A stretch of 64,000 nucleotides of DNA from a virus. Where the stretch lies: the IMG/VR virus record IMGVR_UViG_3300013113_000701, positions 1 through 64,000 of that record. The stretch is one strand, 5' to 3'. The notes under the pieces are model-generated. The model had not been told where the DNA came from and ran no database searches. It saw nothing but the letters and a program-made list of their open reading frames with translations. The position numbers and the translations under genes are program-made. The number at the start of each line of letters is the position of its first letter. The first letter of the stretch is position 1. Shown one piece after another: positions 41,276-61,030 of the stretch.

Positions 41276-41713
41276 TTACTTTTTAAAGCATACTTTTTTC
41301 TTGGGAACCTTTTTAACGTCTGCTCTACCGTTACCTGTAAACCTCATTCCGTACTTAGCGTACATGTTTGAAGCACTTCTACCAAAACGGTATCCTTTGT
41401 TCTCATCGAATTCCGTCTCAGCTCCCACGGTTTCTTCCCCAGGCTGCTTAAGGTCTGGCTGATTTTGGGCGTACTTATTGAAAGATCCTCCCATTGTACC
41501 AAGTGTACCTGAAACATTATTCAAAACATTCGCAACCTTAGATGCTTTTTCATCACCCATAACAGATCCGTAAAGACCCACAGCTTGTGCGGCAACACCT
41601 CCGATGTTAGATGCTCCTGACATCATACCACCTGCTTTACCCATTGCACCAGCCATATTCGCTAATCCCGCGAAGTATCTCTTTGGTGTCTTTATTACTC
41701 GTTTGTTTTTCAT
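41276..41713 (-). CDS. Small Gly/Met-rich head-region protein, 145 aa
   Basis: The N-terminal 60 residues are rich in Gly, Ala and Met (AGAMGKAGGMMSGASNIGGVAAQAVG), and the C-terminus is basic (DVKKVPKKKVCFKK). It lies between portal and scaffold, where crAss-like phages can carry a head fibre or small internal protein. The amphipathic Gly-rich segment resembles those of ejected or membrane-active virion proteins. No family can be named. An 87-base AT-rich gap separates it from the scaffold gene. Confidence 0.65.
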   Translation of the reverse strand: MKNKRVIKTPKRYFAGLANMAGAMGKAGGMMSGASNIGGVAAQAVGLYGSVMGDEKASKVANVLNNVSGTLGTMGGSFNKYAQNQPDLKQPGEETVGAETEFDENKGYRFGRSASNMYAKYGMRFTGNGRADVKKVPKKKVCFKK

Positions 41714-53706: not shown

Positions 53707-53721
53707 TGTACGTTTTGTACA
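53707..53721 (-). promoter_or_regulatory. TGTAC-N5-GTACA palindrome before 53255-53704
   Basis: The sequence TGTACAAAACGTACA (read on the minus strand) is a perfect 5+5-base inverted repeat with a 5-base spacer. It ends 2 bases before the ATG of the downstream gene. The same sequence, in the same position, precedes the winged-helix regulator gene. It could be an operator or a translational site. Confidence 0.7.
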
Positions 53722-53759: not shown

Positions 53760-53795
53760 TGTACATTTTGTACAACGTGTTGTACGTTTTGTACA
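53760..53795. promoter_or_regulatory. Two TGTAC-N5-GTACA palindromes, 21 bp apart
   Basis: Two inverted repeats occur, TGTACATTTTGTACA (53760-53774) and TGTACGTTTTGTACA (53781-53795). Their centres are 21 bp apart, two helical turns, so two dimers could bind on the same face. They lie between the stop of the winged-helix gene and the next gene. Confidence 0.65.
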
Positions 53796-54235: not shown

Positions 54236-54250
54236 TGTACGTTTTGTACA
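54236..54250 (-). promoter_or_regulatory. TGTAC-N5-GTACA palindrome before the regulator gene
   Basis: A perfect copy of the palindrome at 53707-53721 lies 3 bases downstream of the -7 element of the predicted promoter and 2 bases before the ATG. A protein bound here would block transcription start, or a factor binding RNA would block translation start. Confidence 0.7.
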
Positions 54251-54285: not shown

Positions 54286-54413
54286 CTTGTGTATATATTT
54301 TTTTTCATATTTTTTGTGCGGGGTATTCAGTGTTGGAGTCCTTTATCAAACCTCCCCCTATGCATTGGCGGGAACACGGTGTACCCCCCATTCACTAATC
54401 AAACAAAAGTATC

Positions 54414-54668: not shown

Positions 54669-54674
54669 TCAGAC

Positions 54675-54699
54675 GGAGACCTTCGGGTCTCCTCTTTTT
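54675..54699 (+). terminator. Intrinsic terminator
   Basis: GGAGACC-TTCG-GGTCTCC, a 7-bp stem with a stable tetraloop, is followed by TCTTTTT. It ends the transcript of the 84-residue gene 6 bases past its stop. Confidence 0.92.
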
Positions 54700-54931
54700 A
54701 AAACAGCCTATCTAAGCAGAAGCCTCCAGTCTAAGCCGAAGCATACATGCTTTTGGTGTCATAACTGTGTGAGGTAGAAGGTGTTGGACAGCCCACATAA
54801 CTCTCAATTCCATCATTTCGCCATATCACTCATAAATCCATGAGCTATAGTAAAAGAGAAAAGTACACCATATACACACTAAACCAACCGGCATAAAACA
54901 TCATCGTTATTGCCTTGTAAAACCTATTATC
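54700..54931 (+). other. Noncoding stretch with weak local structure
   Basis: No convincing gene was found. Local hairpins can be drawn: AAGCA/TGCTT with a TACA loop near 54740, an enclosing CCTC/GAGG pair, and CTCAT/ATGAG near 54833. These are less regular than in the three noncoding stretches downstream, and no terminator closes it. It probably forms the leader of the 56-residue gene at 54932, with part possibly structured RNA. Confidence 0.35.
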
Positions 54932-55102: not shown

Positions 55103-55355
55103 ATCGGAGTTTCCGAATTAAAATATAGGTGTTGTACAACACATCTCAAACCAAGTTGTACAAGCGTGAACCGGCTGAACGGTAACCACCAACCCCATGA
55201 GTGTTGGTCCAGTAAGAGTAATTAACTTACGTCAGATCTGCTAAGATATCGAGCAACAATAGGAGTTGGTAGCCTATATTTTATCACTAAATCACTAAAA
55301 TCACTAAGATACAAGTTCTACTTATAACAGTAGGGCTTGATGTTCTTGTATTTTT
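55103..55355 (+). ncRNA. Structured noncoding RNA candidate 1
   Basis: No frame of note is open. Successive hairpins can be seen: TCGGA/TCCGA (55104-55116), palindrome GTGTTGTACAACAC (55129-55142), ACCG/CGGT (55170-55183), ACCAAC/GTTGGT (55188-55208), GTAAG/CTTAC (55212-55230) and ATAGG/CCTAT (55259-55277). Three tandem TCACTAA copies follow (55284-55307). Last comes a two-part stem, ATACAAG/CTTGTAT enclosing CTAC/GTAG, with a T-run (55309-55355) that looks like a terminator. It could be one RNA, or an RNA plus a short leader beginning at the heptamers. Confidence 0.5.
55281..55308 (+). repeat. Three tandem TCACTAA heptamers
   Basis: TCACTAA occurs at 55284-55290, 55292-55298 and 55301-55307. 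The same heptamer recurs before at least seven other plus-strand starts in this block. It is the densest cluster and lies before a hairpin with a T-run, not directly before an ATG. Confidence 0.75.
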
Positions 55356-55379
55356 AGGACCTTTTTTAATCTAACTACT

Positions 55380-55487
55380 ATGGGATTACAATACTACATC
55401 AACCTCTACAAAAAGTGGATGACTCAATCAACATTAACCTGGGAAGACTTTTTAAATGAATACAAAGAGATACGAGCACGACTGTGA
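55380..55487 (+). CDS. Very small protein, 35 aa
   Basis: The frame from ATG 55380 encodes an aromatic-rich peptide (MGLQYYINLYKKWMTQS, then WEDFLNEYKEIRARL) that could form one amphipathic helix. It overlaps the next gene by 32 bases in another frame. Short length makes this tentative, but the sequence looks protein-like and fills the space up to the next start. Confidence 0.4.
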   Translation: MGLQYYINLYKKWMTQSTLTWEDFLNEYKEIRARL

Positions 55488-55728
55488 TGCGTGCATATTT
55501 TTAGATCGATGGAAAGAATATGATTTATACATCTGTATTGCAGATGATAAACTATTAAATTTCGTCGCAAGACACAGTAGTAATGGGCCAGACTACACAT
55601 CTGGTCTTAATGTTGCTATTGAACAATACAATGCCGTATTAAATGGCGGTATGTTGTTACCACTTGGTATGGCTATCACTAAAGCCAAACAATTACCAGT
55701 TGTACAGAGATATGTAAAAGACATTTAA
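55456..55728 (+). CDS. Small hypothetical protein, 90 aa
   Basis: Two Cys near the start (HDCDACIFLDRW) are followed by YDLYICIADDKLLNFVARHSS and a Gly-rich segment (LNGGMLLPLGMAITKAK). It is probably a compact alpha/beta protein. The opening CDACIFL, and a later IC, could bind metal. Function is unknown. It is followed by the most highly structured noncoding stretch of the block. Confidence 0.6.
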   Translation: MNTKRYEHDCDACIFLDRWKEYDLYICIADDKLLNFVARHSSNGPDYTSGLNVAIEQYNAVLNGGMLLPLGMAITKAKQLPVVQRYVKDI

Positions 55729-55729
55729 A

Positions 55730-55936
55730 ATAGTGACGTGTCCTCTTAAATGACACGACCTCGTGATGTAAAGGTGTTCATCATCACATGAGGGTTACAG
55801 GCAACGTAAGACGTGTAAATCACAGTATTTGCCGAACATCAGTGTATTGATCACACTAATAGACAAGATTGAGAGGGACAATCCTCAAAGATCATTACAA
55901 CATAGAAACCCTGATGAAATATGCAGGGTTTCTTTT
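55730..55936 (+). ncRNA. Structured noncoding RNA candidate 2 with terminator
   Basis: Five consecutive hairpins and a terminator fit in 200 bases. They are CGTGTC/GACACG (55737-55757); CCTC-GTGATG paired with CATCAC-AT-GAGG (55759-55793, two-base bulge); GGCAA/TTGCC (55800-55833, with ACGT-AAG-ACGT inside); AGTGT/ACACT (55841-55857); and GAGG/CCTC (55873-55886). The terminator is GAAACCCTG / CAGGGTTTC with TTTT (55905-55936). An out-of-phase frame crosses the area, but the terminator would lie within it. A short stable RNA is the better reading. No known class is recognised. Confidence 0.6.
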
Positions 55937-55978
55937 AAAACTGAATTAAACCAAACAAACCATAAAAATTTCTTACTA

Positions 55979-56251
55979 ATGAAAAACCTAACAAACATGT
56001 TATTTGGCACCTTAGTAGGTGTAGCGTTCACACTACTCTCTCTGTTCTTATATGATCAAGAGATTGAGCAACCAGTATTAACTATCACTCATGGTATAAA
56101 CCAAGATGCTGATAAAGTGTTCATCAACCTTGATGGAGAAGAGTATATCTTTCACAAAGATGCACTGAAATATGTGAACTATATGGGAGGTATCATTGAG
56201 ATACAACCCGATGCAGACTACGTTTACTATAACTTTAAAGAAGTTAAGTGA
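55979..56251 (+). CDS. Single-pass membrane protein, 90 aa
   Basis: I start it at ATG 55979, past the terminator, rather than at an upstream ATG whose frame would span that hairpin. It has one N-terminal membrane segment (MLFGTLVGVAFTLLSLFLY). A charged globular part follows (VLTITHGINQDADKVFINLDGEEYIFHK, then YVYYNFKEVK). The stop overlaps the next ATG (TGATG), so the two are coupled. Function is unknown, perhaps host-envelope modification early in infection. Confidence 0.65.
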   Translation: MKNLTNMLFGTLVGVAFTLLSLFLYDQEIEQPVLTITHGINQDADKVFINLDGEEYIFHKDALKYVNYMGGIIEIQPDADYVYYNFKEVK

Positions 56252-56715
56252 TGGGAATATTAAAAGATGTTAAATCACTACTAAAAGTAGTTAAATGGTA
56301 TGATGATGAGTCGGATGTACGTCCGCCATCACAACCAGACTCTGATGGAACAGGTGTTACTTATGATGAGTTCGTGAGAATAAGTCATAAGTATGAACCA
56401 CTTGGTTTCACAACTGAGTTCATTGTATGTGCAGCTAACAAGATAGGTAACAGAGTCTATCCTGGTTATAGACACGCTGACTGTGAAGAACTACAGTCGC
56501 AATGCGAAGAACACACATCCAAGGAAGCAATGCAAATGTATACTGAAGACAGGAAACATCAAGGTTTCTTAACATCTCACAATCGTTGGGTTGATCGTAA
56601 AGAAGCATGGGTAATTGCTAACATGAACGGTCAAATACGCTTTGGTCCACCACCTGTAGGTAAAGGTCGAGAGTTAATATCAGAGCATTTATACATGCAT
56701 CCTGAAGAACTATAA
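56251..56715 (+). CDS. Conserved phage protein with QGFLTS-NRWVDRKEA motif (154 aa)
   Basis: The motif QGFLTSHNRWVDRKEA at residues 104-119, preceded by PGYRHADC (71-78) and followed by SEHLYMHPEEL (144-154), is a pattern I recall from small proteins in many unrelated phages (QGFxTxxxRFVdRxEAxxIA ... LySEDLY). It is predicted as a compact alpha/beta fold. Its enzymatic or binding role is not known to me. The ATG start at 56251 overlaps the previous stop by one base; a GTG at 56248 is an alternative. Confidence 0.75.
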   Translation: MGILKDVKSLLKVVKWYDDESDVRPPSQPDSDGTGVTYDEFVRISHKYEPLGFTTEFIVCAANKIGNRVYPGYRHADCEELQSQCEEHTSKEAMQMYTEDRKHQGFLTSHNRWVDRKEAWVIANMNGQIRFGPPPVGKGRELISEHLYMHPEEL

Positions 56716-56733
56716 AAACTAAAACATTATATC

Positions 56734-56919
56734 ATGGCAACACACTTTGTAGCAGGAAAAATAACAATTGACGTTGAGTTCGACGTTGATGTAGATACTG
56801 ACGATGTTGATAAAGCATTGGAAAGAGGTAAAGAACAAATCAAAGAGCAATTAACTCGATATGTAGATGGTATTCATACCATAAACACTGATGAAATGAT
56901 CGGTGGAGAGTATTGCTAA
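56734..56919 (+). CDS. Small acidic protein, 61 aa
   Basis: A beta-rich, Asp-rich start (GKITIDVEFDVDVDTDDVD) is followed by a helix (KALERGKEQIKEQL). Function is unknown; the strong acidity could mimic nucleic acid or bind cations. There is an 18-base gap from the conserved protein upstream. Confidence 0.6.
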   Translation: MATHFVAGKITIDVEFDVDVDTDDVDKALERGKEQIKEQLTRYVDGIHTINTDEMIGGEYC

Positions 56920-56947
56920 AAATTTCTCACTAATTAATATAATCACT

Positions 56948-57232
56948 ATGGATATTGAAGGTAAGATGATAACTGTTGAAGAGTTATCTAAAACAGTAGA
57001 TCATGTGAAGCAACCCTTCTGGATGTTTTCACCAAAACATAATACATTTCACTTCATTGATGGTATGGACATCAAACCAAAAACAGTCACATTTCACTAT
57101 GAAGACTTATCAAGAAGTAACGTAAATGAAATATTTAATTCTTATAGATTACCAATGGATACCAATGTTATAATAATCATGAATGATGATTATAAAGGTC
57201 CAAGAACATTTACAGAAATAAATAACAACTAA
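56948..57232 (+). CDS. Small hypothetical protein, 94 aa
   Basis: I start it at ATG 56948 (MDIEGKMITVEEL), because it follows the heptamer-containing leader TCACTAATTAATATAATCACT. A start at 56903 would overlap the previous gene. The protein is mixed alpha/beta, with KQPFWMFSPKHNTFHFIDG in the middle and VIIIMNDDYKG near the end. No family is recognised. The same leader sequence is repeated directly after its stop, before the next gene. Confidence 0.6.
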   Translation: MDIEGKMITVEELSKTVDHVKQPFWMFSPKHNTFHFIDGMDIKPKTVTFHYEDLSRSNVNEIFNSYRLPMDTNVIIIMNDDYKGPRTFTEINNN

Positions 57233-57268
57233 TCACTAATTAATATAATCACTAAAAACACATACATC

Positions 57269-57442
57269 ATGGTAAAAGGAAACTTAGGAAAAATGATGTG
57301 GATGGAAACTCTTAAGAATGAGAGTAGTCGTGACGTTAACATGTTCGACTTAGCATCCATAGATGGTGACGCACCATCAGAAATACAAGATCAAATGAAT
57401 CTTGAATTATTTAGCGAAGCAGTAGAATCATCTGCAGCCTAA
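57269..57442 (+). CDS. Small protein, 57 aa
   Basis: The frame from ATG 57269 to TAA gives MVKGNLGKMMWMETL, then an acidic stretch with DVNMFDLASIDGDAPSEIQ and ELFSEAVESSAA. It has a leader with a TCACTAA heptamer and its own strong terminator, which supports it as a real transcription unit. There is no known domain. The acidic C-terminus may be disordered. Confidence 0.6.
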   Translation: MVKGNLGKMMWMETLKNESSRDVNMFDLASIDGDAPSEIQDQMNLELFSEAVESSAA

Positions 57443-57453
57443 CCTATCATTTA

Positions 57454-57486
57454 GAGGAGAGTGGACCGAACGCTCTCCTCATTTTT
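57454..57486 (+). terminator. Intrinsic terminator
   Basis: The 8-bp stem GAGGAGAG / CTCTCCTC has an 11-base loop and is followed by ATTTTT. It lies just past the 57-residue gene. Confidence 0.9.
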
Positions 57487-57542
57487 AACACTCTTATAGC
57501 CTGGGCTATGAAAGACCGGCAAATCACTAAAACACTAATCCA

Positions 57543-57773
57543 ATGAAAGAAGTAATAATAGTACTACACAAAGATGATGAAATGTCATCTGTAGAAGTAA
57601 CAAAGCTGATAAATCAGATGAGAATGGATGGTCACTTTGAAGCAATGAAAAGAGTTAAAGAACTATTTGATCAAGGAGTAAATCCACAGCTAATAACTGT
57701 AACATCTGGCGTTGCAATGAATAACACACCATTCAAAGTATTACACGAAGACGAACTTGTAACAATATCATAA
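57543..57773 (+). CDS. Small hypothetical protein, 76 aa
   Basis: It starts with KEVIIVLHKDDEMSSVEVTKLINQM (beta then helix), has a helix AMKRVKELFDQG, and ends NNTPFKVLHEDELVTIS. It is likely a small alpha/beta protein with unknown function. The leader carries TCACTAA and CACTAA copies 3-20 bases before the ATG. Its stop overlaps the next ATG (TAATG). Confidence 0.6.
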   Translation: MKEVIIVLHKDDEMSSVEVTKLINQMRMDGHFEAMKRVKELFDQGVNPQLITVTSGVAMNNTPFKVLHEDELVTIS

Positions 57774-57910
57774 TGGGAATGAGTAACATACAAAAGAAAA
57801 ACGATGGCCCTAAGCCAACACCTAAGAACAAAGGTGAGCTTAGAGGTGTATGTAATAGATCTGCATGTTTATCACCTAATAATGTAGAATGCAAATCTCT
57901 ACCCAAATGA
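57773..57910 (+). CDS. Short CN-S/T-AC motif protein, possibly truncated (45 aa)
   Basis: The basic start (SNIQKKNDGPKPTPKNKGEL) is followed by RGVCNRSACLSPNNVECK. The pattern GxCNxSxCxxPxx is the first half of a small phage zinc-finger-like family in which a second CxxC normally follows. Here the frame stops soon after, so it may be cut short or may use only three Cys. It is coupled to the gene before it. The truncation fits the transition into a noncoding stretch. Confidence 0.5.
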   Translation: MGMSNIQKKNDGPKPTPKNKGELRGVCNRSACLSPNNVECKSLPK

Positions 57911-57930
57911 TGACCGAAAAACATCTATCA

Positions 57931-57997
57931 AGAGAGGTGCTCTGGGAGATATAGTCTAAAGTACAAAGGCTATTCGGGTTCGAATCCCGGTCTCTCA
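57931..57997 (+). ncRNA. tRNA-like element (reduced or degenerate tRNA)
   Basis: A canonical T-arm, TCGGG-TTCGAAT-CCCGG (57974-57990), is followed by acceptor strand TCTCTC (57991-57996). This pairs with GAGAGG at 57932-57937, followed by T at 57938 as in tRNA position 8. The middle is not canonical: the D-arm region is only about 11 bases, and a 7-bp stem ATAGTCT/AGGCTAT (57951-57973) carries a 9-base loop without a standard anticodon. No CCA is encoded. Length is 67 rather than 73-76. It may be a tRNA mimic or a decayed tRNA. Confidence 0.55.
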
Positions 57998-58008
57998 CTG
58001 AATTTTTA

Positions 58009-58155
58009 ACCGCAGTTCCGATAATAACCAACGATAGACCAATGCATTGTTTATGTTGGTGATATAGAATTCTCGGAATACTCAAGGTAAGAGTATAAAA
58101 TGCCAAAACTGCAGTCAAATATAAGCCTGAGACTAATTATCTCAGGCTTTCTTTT
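58009..58155 (+). ncRNA. Multi-helix structured RNA candidate with terminator
   Basis: Nested pairs can be drawn: GCAG/CTGC (58012-58015 with 58109-58112), directly stacked on TTCCGA/TCGGAA (58016-58021 with 58073-58078), enclosing ACCAAC/GTTGGT (58027-58032 with 58055-58060), plus hairpin ACTC/GAGT (58080-58094). This gives a junction fold. It is followed by terminator AGCCTGAGA-CTAATTA-TCTCAGGCT-TTCTTTT (58124-58155). Together with the tRNA-like element just upstream it could be one transcript of about 225 bases. I know no matching RNA family. Confidence 0.6.
58124..58155 (+). terminator. Intrinsic terminator
   Basis: A perfect 9-bp stem AGCCTGAGA / TCTCAGGCT (loop CTAATTA) is followed by TTCTTTT. 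It ends the noncoding stretch containing the tRNA-like element, and a new leader with TCACTAA begins right after it. Confidence 0.92.
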
Positions 58156-58177
58156 AATCACTAAATCACACTCACTA

Positions 58178-58579
58178 ATGTCAAATGAAGAATACAAAGA
58201 ACTCATTGAAAAAGAGTTACAAGATGATAGAATAACTATCAAAGATGTAGCAGATGTAAATCATCATCCACATCCATATACTATTGGACCAGCACACATT
58301 AAATATGCTAACGATCACCACAGTGGTAGAATAGGAAAAGAAACATGTGAAAATGTAGGATGTGCACATGCTGGTTGTACTACTCCTTATGATCAACACA
58401 CATCAAATAAAGTGTGTTTCATTCAGTTCACTGAAGATATACCCGCAGGTGATTTCCAAGAAGAAATCCAACGTGTCATTGATACATTACCTGAAGTATT
58501 CAACAAAAATGCTGTCGAAGGATTTGCATTCATTGAAGGTGATGGTAAAATCATACACGATGAAAGTAAGAAGGGCTAA
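58178..58579 (+). CDS. His/Cys-rich protein, 133 aa
   Basis: I start it at ATG 58178, after the terminator and directly behind TCACTAAATCACACTCACTA. An upstream ATG at 58100 would read through the terminator stem. It contains a clear metal-binding type stretch: NHHPHPYTIGPAHIKYANDHHSG, then CENVGCAHAGC at about residues 57-67. The C-terminal half is alpha/beta (EEIQRVIDTLPEVF, VEGFAFIEGDGKI). Zinc binding is likely; the function is unknown. It overlaps the next gene by 20 bases. Confidence 0.65.
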   Translation: MSNEEYKELIEKELQDDRITIKDVADVNHHPHPYTIGPAHIKYANDHHSGRIGKETCENVGCAHAGCTTPYDQHTSNKVCFIQFTEDIPAGDFQEEIQRVIDTLPEVFNKNAVEGFAFIEGDGKIIHDESKKG

Positions 58580-58775
58580 TGTTGATTTAATACGTATCGA
58601 AGGATATGTAGCACACATGCCACCTGAACGTTATATTCAAGAGGCATCGAGAGGGCCAGGAAACAGATACTACGTAACTCGTGGTGCTGCAGGTGGATTA
58701 TCCATCTCATCTAAGCGTGTCACAGTGTTGGCATGTTGTATTATTTACCTTAACGACGATCATTATGGGATTTAG
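58560..58775 (+). CDS. Small basic protein, 71 aa
   Basis: The start at 58560 gives MKVRRANVDLIRIEGYV, then RYIQEASRGPGNRYYVTRG and a hydrophobic VTVLACCIIYL near the C-terminus. It is an unknown family. It overlaps the previous gene by 20 bases and the next by 11, which is usual here. A longer upstream reading of the same frame would run through the previous gene. Confidence 0.5.
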   Translation: MKVRRANVDLIRIEGYVAHMPPERYIQEASRGPGNRYYVTRGAAGGLSISSKRVTVLACCIIYLNDDHYGI

Positions 58776-59310
58776 AGTATGTAGAAAGTGTGGAGAAGAT
58801 AAAGAATTATCTGAATACCAAATGGTAAAAGCGAAGTTAAAATCAGGATATATTAAAATCAGAATACCTCATATATGCAAACAATGTAACCGAGAGAGGC
58901 AATATGAGTGGCGTAAAGAAAAGTATAAAAATGATCCTGAATATCGTAAAAAAGCGATTGCAATGTCTTCGAAAATAAATAAAAAAAGAAGAAAGAATGA
59001 TCCTGAATATGCGGAGTTTATTCGAAAACAAAATGCAGAATGGGGTAAAAATAATCGTGAAAAAGTAAATGAAAAGCAAAGAAAGTACAGAGAAAGAAAG
59101 CCAAGAACTGAAGAAGAAATACAAAAAAGAAGGGCTTACGGACAAAATCAACGAGATACTCTCGATGATGTATATGTGAAAAGAGTAATTGTACAATCTT
59201 CTGCTAATATTAAACGCGAGGAAATTACACCTGAATTAATAGAAGTATATCGAGAAAAATTAATCATAAATCGTAAAATAAAAAATCATGAGCAAACTAT
59301 CAAAGCTTAA
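58765..59310 (+). CDS. Zinc-finger protein with basic coiled coil (181 aa)
   Basis: Residues 3-45 contain CxxC pairs C6-x2-C9 and C38-x2-C41 (VCRKCGEDKELSEY ... ICKQCNRER). This matches the N-terminal zinc module common to phage HNH and endonuclease-VII-like proteins. A very basic helical stretch follows (WRKEKYKNDPEYRKK, EKQRKYRERKPRTE). The end (REEITPELIEVYREKLIINRKIK) is also typical of such phage proteins. I see no HNH catalytic motif in the middle, so nuclease activity is not supported. DNA or RNA binding is likely. Confidence 0.7.
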   Translation: MGFRVCRKCGEDKELSEYQMVKAKLKSGYIKIRIPHICKQCNRERQYEWRKEKYKNDPEYRKKAIAMSSKINKKRRKNDPEYAEFIRKQNAEWGKNNREKVNEKQRKYRERKPRTEEEIQKRRAYGQNQRDTLDDVYVKRVIVQSSANIKREEITPELIEVYREKLIINRKIKNHEQTIKA

Positions 59311-59476
59311 AAAAGATAGTGTTAAACAGTTGAAATCAGTATCCAATGAAACATTAGATATGGCACAAAAACTTGGAGAAAAGTACAATAAGACTGAGAA
59401 GATTGAACATGCGAGAGAGTCAAGAAAGTTCTATGACACTACAATCAAAGCATTAATTGCAATAACTAAATATTAA
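59288..59476 (+). CDS. Small helical basic protein, 62 aa
   Basis: It is a Lys/Ser-rich helical protein (MSKLSKLKKDSVKQLKSVSNE, KLGEKYNKTEKIEHARESRKF). It overlaps the zinc-finger gene by 23 bases. Function is unknown. The heptamer leader of the next gene follows its stop directly. Confidence 0.55.
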   Translation: MSKLSKLKKDSVKQLKSVSNETLDMAQKLGEKYNKTEKIEHARESRKFYDTTIKALIAITKY

Positions 59477-59494
59477 TCACTAAAATCACTAAAG

Positions 59495-59617
59495 ATGTCA
59501 GTATCACAAGTACAACCACAATCAAAAGTAAACAGGGAGACATTCCAAAAAACTGAAAAGGAAAAGCAAGCAGTTAAAGCTGCTAAGAAGGCACATAAGA
59601 AACTTTTAAAAAAGTAG
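59495..59617 (+). CDS. Very small Lys-rich protein, 40 aa
   Basis: The frame from ATG 59495 is Gln/Lys-rich (VSQVQPQSKVNRETFQKTEK, then KAAKKAHKKLLKK), with a strongly basic C-terminus. It has two TCACTAA copies immediately before the ATG and a strong terminator after the stop, so it looks like a deliberate single-gene unit. The basic tail suggests nucleic-acid or ribosome contact. Confidence 0.6.
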   Translation: MSVSQVQPQSKVNRETFQKTEKEKQAVKAAKKAHKKLLKK

Positions 59618-59636
59618 ACGTTCTTTATTCCCGCTT

Positions 59637-59665
59637 AAGAGAGGTACTCCAATACCTCTCTTTTT
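59637..59665 (+). terminator. Intrinsic terminator
   Basis: The stem AAGAGAGGTA / TACCTCTCTT (loop CTCCAA) overlaps a TTTTT run. It ends the unit of the 40-residue gene. Confidence 0.92.
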
Positions 59666-59678
59666 AAAACATTCAACC

Positions 59679-59804
59679 ATGAAAGAAAAAGAAATCAATG
59701 CTCTGAGAGATACCAAATGGTTATCTGTGCAGACACGTTGCATAGCTGAAATAGCTATTGTAAAAGAGGCTCACCCTCAAATGAGAATACAAGCATTAAA
59801 CTAA
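59679..59804 (+). CDS. Very small protein, 41 aa
   Basis: The frame from ATG 59679 gives MKEKEINALRDTKWLSVQTR followed by CIAEIAIVKEAHPQMRIQALN, predicted as two helices. It starts 14 bases after a terminator. No family is known. Length makes it tentative, but the frame fills the interval and looks protein-like. Confidence 0.5.
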   Translation: MKEKEINALRDTKWLSVQTRCIAEIAIVKEAHPQMRIQALN

Positions 59805-59829
59805 TCACCAACTCACTAAATCCAAAGAA

Positions 59830-60147
59830 ATGAAGCACCCGTTAGTAATATTATTACTCCTCTTATCAGTAGTATCAATGATTTCCATCGGTATTCTACT
59901 TAAAAGAAAGATGTTAAGTAGAATCGCTTTTGATAAAAAGCACAGTAGATGGTTTATCATCATGGAAATCGACGATGAAACAGAACAAAATGAGTTCATC
60001 AAAAATGAGATATATTGGCAGTATACACTGGCATATGACAACTTTTCAGATAAAAACTTTAACATCAGTAAAGTGTATGATGAATTGATGTCAAACAAAC
60101 AATTCAAAGAAACTTTAGAAACATTACAAACTAACAAAGAAGACTGA
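59830..60147 (+). CDS. Single-pass membrane protein, 105 aa
   Basis: The N-terminal hydrophobic segment (VILLLLLSVVSMISIGILL) could be a signal anchor. A charged helical C-terminal domain follows (DDETEQNEFIKNEIYW, ELMSNKQFKETLETL). It is the first of three adjacent small membrane proteins. A role at the host envelope is inferred from topology only. Confidence 0.6.
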   Translation: MKHPLVILLLLLSVVSMISIGILLKRKMLSRIAFDKKHSRWFIIMEIDDETEQNEFIKNEIYWQYTLAYDNFSDKNFNISKVYDELMSNKQFKETLETLQTNKED

Positions 60148-60148
60148 T

Positions 60149-60304
60149 ATGCACAAGAAGAAGAAAATGTTCGAATCAAGTTTAACATTAATGCCTGGAC
60201 TGTTGTTAGGACTTGCATTTGAAAAAAACTCAATGCATTTAGCATTCTTGTGTTTTATACTAACAGTCAATTATATACCAAAAAGAAAAAGAAAAAGAAG
60301 ATGA
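60149..60304 (+). CDS. Small basic membrane protein, 51 aa
   Basis: The frame from ATG 60149 has a basic start (MHKKKKMFE), two hydrophobic stretches (LTLMPGLLLGLAFE and HLAFLCFILTVNYI) and a very basic end (PKRKRKRR). Its TGA overlaps the next ATG. The hairpin-like topology is holin-like but could be any small envelope protein. Confidence 0.5.
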   Translation: MHKKKKMFESSLTLMPGLLLGLAFEKNSMHLAFLCFILTVNYIPKRKRKRR

Positions 60305-60663
60305 AACAGTTTATTTTAGAAGTATTACAGATCTTATTCCAATATGTTGAAGAGTATATTATATTCTACAGAGGAATGTTTAAGTATGATATTGAAGTAT
60401 TCAGCCAAGGTTGGATTTATGCATGGTGTTTTGTACCAGTATTTTTCTACTTCATATTCTTCGTATTCAAATGGGTAGTGGTCATTGATGAAGAAACAAG
60501 GATTAGTGAGCCTTTAGTGATGAAGTCTGCGGCCGGCTATTATGTCGGTCTGCAGTACTTCGATGAAGAAACTGGGCTATGGTTACCATATGATAGGTTA
60601 AACGATTACTATTCTGGTGAAGAGTACACAAAACAAAAACTTAAAGAATTCAAATCTTATTAA
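60301..60663 (+). CDS. Membrane protein, 120 aa
   Basis: I start it at ATG 60301, which overlaps the previous stop as ATGA. The longer upstream frame would read through the previous gene. There is one strong membrane segment (WIYAWCFVPVFFYFIFFVFKWVVV, residues ~40-63). A soluble C-terminus with KSAAGYYVGLQYFDEETGLWLPYDRL follows. Function is unknown. Confidence 0.6.
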   Translation: MKQFILEVLQILFQYVEEYIIFYRGMFKYDIEVFSQGWIYAWCFVPVFFYFIFFVFKWVVVIDEETRISEPLVMKSAAGYYVGLQYFDEETGLWLPYDRLNDYYSGEEYTKQKLKEFKSY

Positions 60664-60819
60664 AATGGAAAAGCCATACAAAAACTTCCAAGAGTGGTCA
60701 ATGGGCTGTTTGCGTTGAAATAAGTTCAGGTTGAGATACTTCCAAAAAGTCCCCATATAGAACAGAAGGGTGACTGACTAATAAATAAGAACTACAACTA
60801 TTTAAAATATAAATCCCCA

Positions 60820-60924
60820 ATGCTGACGAATAAACTAAGAGTGTTCAACTGGCGTGAACCAGTAAAGAAAAAAACTAAGTCACTCCGTAACACAACCAAG
60901 TGTGTTGGTTTTGAAATCAGGTAA
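60820..60924 (+). CDS. Possible very small basic protein, 34 aa
   Basis: A short frame (MLTNKLRVFNWREPVKKKT, ending VGFEIR) lies inside a noncoding-looking interval and overlaps the structured RNA candidate. It could be a leader peptide or chance. I list it so the interval is accounted for. Confidence 0.25.
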   Translation: MLTNKLRVFNWREPVKKKTKSLRNTTKCVGFEIR

Positions 60925-60970
60925 AGAGGAGTGTGAAAGCGGATAGTGCTCCGGGATAGTACCCGTGAGC
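60848..60970 (+). ncRNA. Structured noncoding RNA candidate 3
   Basis: The 60664-61030 interval has no convincing gene. It holds ACTGG/CCAGT (60848-60863); CACTCC/GGAGTG (60881-60886 with 60928-60933) enclosing AACACA-ACCAAG-TGTGTT (60889-60906); and the long hairpin GCTC-CGGG-ATAGTA-CCCG-T-GAGC (60948-60970). It shares the 9-mer GCGTGAACC with candidate 1. No clear terminator follows; only a TTTTTT stretch near 61006. The heptamer leader of the next gene comes next. Confidence 0.5.
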
Positions 60971-61030
60971 TGCCTAACTTTATGCCACTTGGAGGACATT
61001 GAGGATTTTTTATTCACTAAAATCACAATC

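Follow-up and report, generated by a model that had tools for sequence, protein, structure and literature searches.

Structured noncoding stretches and a tRNA-Ser-derived element among the putative early genes of a crAss-like phage

We analyzed a window of 64,000 nucleotides from a virus record 65,151 bases long (IMG/VR IMGVR_UViG_3300013113_000701) and describe here four gene-free stretches (stretches 1 to 4, from left to right) that lie between small genes in its putative early region. For three of these four, the presence of structured noncoding sequence is supported, and stretch 3 harbors a mini-cloverleaf that, to judge from its sequence, derives from a serine transfer RNA (tRNA-Ser). Similar noncoding blocks, with tRNAs, tRNA-like elements, and transfer-messenger RNA (tmRNA), recur in the corresponding part of the genomes of related phages; it is this recurrence, together with the tRNA-Ser-derived element, that is worth following. 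We lean, tentatively and with somewhat less than even confidence, toward reading the block as a set of several separate structured RNAs, rather than one family, with the tRNA-like elements probably serving as processing sites.

The window phage is crAss-like, as indicated by its gene order and by its terminase, which shows 82% identity to those of three uncultured contigs and 35% to that of Cellulophaga phage phi14:2. The stretches are on the plus strand, immediately to the right of a strand switch at ~54,320, and the small genes around them stand upstream of genes for an SSB-like protein (62050) and a DNA polymerase (62611). It is because of this position and the analogy with crAss001 (PMC10136315) that we name the region early, a designation that is accordingly provisional.

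The tRNA-Ser-derived mini-cloverleaf

The predicted fold of the mini-cloverleaf (Table 1) begins with a 6-bp acceptor stem (57932-57937/57991-57996), followed by U8 and G9 and by a D-arm of 3 bp (CTC/GAG; 57940-57942/57946-57948) with a 3-nucleotide (nt) D-loop. A single 23-nt hairpin (ATAGTCT/AGGCTAT; 57951-57957/57967-57973) stands in for both the anticodon and the variable arms, and the T-arm (57974-57990) has a 5-bp stem with the loop TTCGAAT. At the 3' end, the 23-mer CGGGTTCGAATCCCGGTCTCTCA occurs a single time across 84,980 species genomes from bacteria and archaea, within a tRNA-Ser(GGA) gene of Prevotella. Of 198 genomes of the phylum of Prevotella, 2 contain the 22-mer obtained by dropping its last base, each time in a tRNA-Ser; an exact scan of viral contigs for the tRNA 3' end gave no match. 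The 5' end, AGAGAGGTG, also matches GGAGAGGTG of tRNA-Ser(GCT), and the D-stem is as in the Prevotella gene. Hence, the acceptor, U8, D-stem, and T-arm match bacterial genes for tRNA-Ser, a type II tRNA, in sequence, whereas the element departs from them in lacking a normal anticodon arm, in its 3-nt D-loop and single hairpin, and in having C rather than G at position 73 and an A1.A72 mismatch. These features identify it as being of tRNA-Ser origin and, by its sequence, no longer able to decode; the first-pass annotation of this DNA, which knew of no described class that fits these stretches, was wrong for this part of stretch 3.

When set against the tRNA family (RF00005), the element has the expected acceptor and T-arm (6 to 7 bp and a TTCRANN-type loop), while in place of an anticodon arm of 5 bp and a 7-nt loop it has a 7-bp stem with the 9-nt loop AAAGTACAA; neither ARAGORN nor Rfam at its gathering threshold calls a tRNA here. 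Out of 400 shuffled versions of the early region, 1 matched a strict acceptor/T-arm descriptor that was devised after the sequence had been seen, as did 2 of 120 shuffled 65-kb strands. The predicted fold also presents the coaxial acceptor/T-arm of ~12 bp with a T-loop that characterizes RNase P substrates.

The same element could be a relic, i.e., a decayed tRNA-Ser gene among other decayed genes, with structure of little meaning. The lack of an ARAGORN call, the fast turnover of early regions (most early proteins are without relatives), and the nonsignificant structure of stretch 4 are all in keeping with decay. Nevertheless, both tRNA ends and their pairing are kept, with only the decoding part exchanged for a 7-bp hairpin, similar tRNA-like elements recur across several related phages, and no protein remnants are seen, so that we consider this explanation unlikely. 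A second alternative is that the tRNA 3' end is the core of an attachment site for integration, such cores being typically exact 3' ends of tRNAs like the 22 nt found here. This is highly improbable, as the tRNA 5' end is kept too and the identity stops short of the end of the tRNA without running on; moreover, integration is not known to occur in the cultured relatives among crAss-like phages.

Structure and kinship of the gene-free stretches

The first-pass annotation had described all four stretches as structured and free of convincing genes. As to their existence, their location between early genes, and the absence of convincing genes it was correct; as to structure, its description holds for three stretches and fails for stretch 4. 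Stop-to-stop fragments from the gaps (whose limits were set with the gene that follows stretch 3 taken to begin at 58180) have no relative at E<0.01 in the related phages; most of the early genes beside the gaps are likewise without relatives. Altogether, the comparisons drew on 31 related contigs plus phi14:2 and Flavobacterium phage Fpv2; uncultured related phages are denoted by G-numbers. A fifth gap, which the earlier annotation did not list, is given in Table 1.

Short perfect helices are indeed many. Counting each distinct perfect inverted repeat of 6 bp once, the four stretches have 26, where dinucleotide shuffles give 10.6 (P=0.001) and late coding-strand stretches of equal lengths, drawn at random, give 11.0 (P=0.007). 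Relative to shuffles, stretches 1 and 3 fold with z-scores of -4.35 and -3.19, respectively (for stretch 2, see Table 1), and the inner units 55117-55288 (z -3.36) and 57998-58156 (z -4.20) are beaten by 0 of 200 shuffles. Folding energy alone is weak evidence, since comparable z-scores occasionally occur in coding regions: 120-nt windows with z of -4 or lower are also present in the late ones. In stretch 1, the multibranched fold includes an inner hairpin, TTGTACAAC/GTTGTACAA, and its centroid structure equals the minimum free energy structure. For the candidate closing stem of stretch 4, the corresponding test gave p=0.12.

Terminator-like ends had been reported for three stretches. We find good hairpin/U-tract signals in stretches 2 and 3 but a weaker, long-loop stem in stretch 1, and no terminator-like hairpin in stretch 4; the region as a whole has 11 terminator-like sites against 4.0 +/- 1.8 expected. 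This excess, the location of every stretch between same-strand genes, and the terminators that close stretches 2 and 3 just before the next gene would all be accounted for if the stretches served the small early genes as structured 5' or 3' untranslated regions, terminators, and attenuators, yielding no free RNAs and using the tRNA-like element only as a signal for mRNA processing or stability. We regard this explanation as possible, if on the unlikely side: the compact closed folds of >100 nt are more than a terminator requires, and relatives carry noncoding early blocks of 1 to 2 kb with tmRNA and tRNAs.

The proposal that the stretches form a single family of related early RNAs is not supported. 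The ACCAAC/GTTGGT helix that suggested it is indeed present in three stretches (P=0.002 against shuffles and P=0.012 against late stretches, both post hoc, the helix-sharing statistics having been devised after the sequence was seen). The sharing of GCGTGAACC by stretches 1 and 4 is also real, but shared 9-mers overall are at the chance level (P=0.32), and the two copies occupy different structural contexts. Beyond this one 6-bp helix the stretches have no sequence or structure in common. Rfam searches of the window gave 0 matches at the gathering threshold and nothing above chance at lax thresholds; covariance models built from one sequence each (55119-55284 and 58009-58115) did not recover each other, the remaining stretches, or any relative in 1.18 Mb of related phages; and BLAST searches with each stretch against 50,697 phages returned only short, chance-level matches. 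As there is no further shared sequence, no Rfam match, and no hit with the covariance models, the single-family reading, already disfavored, is unsupported and very improbable. We also observed that in stretch 1 a single ACCAAC faces two copies of GTTGGT (55188-55193, 55203-55208, and 55265-55270), so that two hairpins compete, a possible switch.

Table 1. Features of the window and tmRNAs of related phages (L-numbers denote sequences of the related phages)
Feature	Positions	Strand	Remarks
Gene-free gaps	55103-55455, 55729-55978, 57911-58179, 60664-61030	+	House stretches 1 to 4
Fifth gap	54669-54931	+	After first early gene; terminator 54675-54692; rest not significantly structured (z -0.97)
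Stretch 1, multibranched RNA	55119-55284	+	Closed by 10-bp stem AAAATATAGG/CCTATATTTT (55120-55129/55273-55282)
Stretch 1, weak terminator-like end	55308-55355	+	ATACAAG/CTTGTAT long-loop stem, then TTTT; inner hairpin 55312-55339
Stretch 2	55729-55936	+	Terminator hairpin GAAACCCTG/CAGGGTTTC (55905-55932); z -2.64
Stretch 3, tRNA-Ser-derived mini-cloverleaf	57931-57998	+	tRNA-Ser sequence matches at both ends
Stretch 3, structured RNA body	58008-58118	+	Closed by GCAGTT/AACTGC; helices TTCCGA/TCGGAA, ACCAAC/GTTGGT, TACTC/GAGTA
Stretch 3, intrinsic-terminator-like hairpin	58123-58155	+	AAGCCTGAGA/TCTCAGGCTT plus T-tract; hairpin/U-tract 58123-58149
Stretch 4	60744-61011 (gap 60664-61030)	+	Stem AAAAAGTCC/GGATTTTTT may close it; no significant structure
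tmRNA, phi14:2	L131 4031-4500		ARAGORN
tmRNA, Flavobacterium phage Fpv2	L133 24357-24771	-	Rfam
tmRNA, uncultured G009	L039 4351-4727	-	Rfam

Early noncoding blocks of related phages

Long noncoding stretches occupy the same part of the genome in G002 (684 nt), G024 (1250 nt), phi14:2 (706 and 1698 nt), and Fpv2 (2332 nt). In phi14:2 and Fpv2, the gaps around late genes are far shorter, and in the early gaps of phi14:2 most of the original small open reading frame calls were removed by NCBI in 2020. These early blocks contain tRNAs and, in three phages, a tmRNA (Table 1), which is missing from the feature lists of the public phi14:2 and Fpv2 records. They also contain tRNA-like elements without a usable anticodon arm. 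In G002, two 42-nt minihelices consisting of acceptor and T-arm (76689 and 76828) flank an RNA of ~90 nt closed by a terminal stem; Leu-like elements in G004 (1585-1682) and G009 (41517-41597) have a D-arm and a variable arm with little or no anticodon arm; and further examples occur in G024 and phi14:2. A comparison of k-mers shared by the noncoding early regions of eight phages revealed only pieces of tRNA and tmRNA as clearly standing out, and the block appears to be conserved by position and kind rather than by sequence. With 99% identity or more across the block, the Flavobacterium phage isolates are useless for covariation, and queries with early proteins in IMG/VR yielded no useful close relatives, whereas TerL and capsid queries did recover relatives.

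In a maximal-stem test restricted to noncoding regions, terminal stems of 8 to 12 bp beside a U-tract exceed dinucleotide shuffles (p 0.01-0.04) in G002, G004, G024, phi14:2, and Fpv2; in an earlier, looser scan of whole contigs, the observed number was about that expected. One RNA of phi14:2 (L131 3256-3364) has counterparts of 75% identity in unannotated gaps of phi4:1 and phi17:2 (L134 1974-2073; L135), in which the stem is conserved and the apical hairpin variable. These two phages belong to another genus, Lightbulbvirus, and infect the same Cellulophaga host species as phi14:2, a member of Crassvirales.

The architecture of the RNAs of the relatives, with a closed terminal stem, a U-tract, and a tRNA-like module, could suggest RNAs that resemble Y RNAs and bind a Ro60/TROVE protein of the phage, and crAss001 encodes an early TROVE protein (PMC10136315). 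However, the TROVE domain (PF05731) was not found in 17 records, including that of the window and the complete phi14:2 and Fpv2, and the window has no Rfam match. We rejected the Y RNA/YrlA reading for want of TROVE in these records and hold it to be extremely improbable.

Several other features of these genomes deserve mention. Repeats of the form TGTAC(G/A)TTTTGTACA (53707-53721, 53760-53774, 53781-53795, and 54236-54250), which immediately precede the start codons of two genes of the window that run leftward, have near-identical copies in matching places in G002/G003 and G005 and are probably an operator. Upstream of the first early gene, a conserved leader, GTGTT(A/G)GGGTCC ... AACCTCCCCCTA (54330-54385), is recognizable in G002, G004, G005, G006, G009, G019, and G020 and may be a promoter, an origin, or a 5' untranslated region element. 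A tRNA of G004 (L022 2486-2558, minus strand) has an 8-nt anticodon loop (anticodon tcca according to ARAGORN) and is possibly a frameshift suppressor or a degenerate tRNA. Ordinary tRNA gene clusters are found in G009 (L037 16317-18120, minus strand) and G027 (L110 1211-5450, minus strand).

Proposed processing and significance

We infer that the RNAs of the window are transcribed, processed, and act in trans, most likely along the following lines. The early operon would be read through, and RNase P would recognize the tRNA-like element by its acceptor/T-arm and cut before 57931, while the 3' tRNA processing of the host would cut near 57998. With the 3' end set by the terminator of stretch 3, a discrete RNA of ~150 nt (~58000-58155) would result; stretches 1 and 2 would be released similarly or end at their own hairpins, and the host would be the target on which the released RNAs act in trans during early infection. 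The acceptor/T-arm is the ruler that RNase P measures, and any RNA presenting it is cut, tmRNA included (PMC4919913); therefore, the mini-cloverleaf is a plausible, predicted cut site. As for aminoacylation, serine identity is independent of the anticodon but draws on the variable arm and on G73 (PMC9976931), and charging of the window element is uncertain because its position 73 is C.

Several observations weigh against this interpretation. Stretch 4 folds no better than its shuffles (z -0.58, and -0.93 in a second test), and the closed-stem architecture of the relatives is not significant in the stretches of the window itself. The best match of the mini-cloverleaf within its Rfam clan is to tRNA-Sec, at 15.2 bits against a gathering threshold of 47; an alternative acceptor pairing, at -17.2 kcal/mol, is about as stable as the cloverleaf, at -17.7 kcal/mol; and the element has the A1.A72 mismatch noted above. 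The pairing counts on seven tRNA-like elements are circular, as these were chosen for their pairing, and being not independent they carry no weight. Finally, neither a close relative whose early region can be aligned nor a homologue of the RNAs of the window turned up in the collections searched.

Among known systems, tmRNA (RF00023) likewise combines tRNA-like ends with the lack of an anticodon and lies in the same early block of phi14:2, Fpv2, and G009; the window itself gave no match to the tmRNA covariance model and has no tag reading frame. The stable RNAs C and D of phage T4, whose function is unknown, are encoded in a tRNA cluster beside tRNA processing signals; they belong to a different phage group. 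GOLLD and ROOL, too, are noncoding RNAs of phages that lie close to tRNA genes and whose function is unknown (PMC12286853), but they are single large conserved families, whereas the RNAs of the window are short sequence orphans without an Rfam match. In the MALAT1-type element, cleavage of a tRNA-like structure by RNase P frees a noncoding RNA (PMC4919913), albeit in another domain of life, while in the window such processing is only predicted.

A broader proposition, which we put forward as speculative and rather improbable, is that the crAss-like phages of aquatic Bacteroidota maintain a dedicated early block of noncoding RNAs. In it, Ser- and Leu-like elements that lack a usable anticodon arm, as well as tmRNA, would be produced deliberately; once processed, and perhaps charged by anticodon-blind synthetases, they would either free adjacent structured RNAs or, early in infection, divert charged amino acids or the translation machinery of the host. 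The main text of a review of crAss-like phages (PMC10136315) mentions neither noncoding RNAs nor tmRNA. These phages are among the most abundant known, and the cultured relatives phi14:2 and Fpv2 make the RNAs of the block testable. If the proposed reading is true, the early block, with one RNA shared across genera on the same host species, would supply specific RNAs that may have roles in host takeover, RNA processing, or counter-defence.

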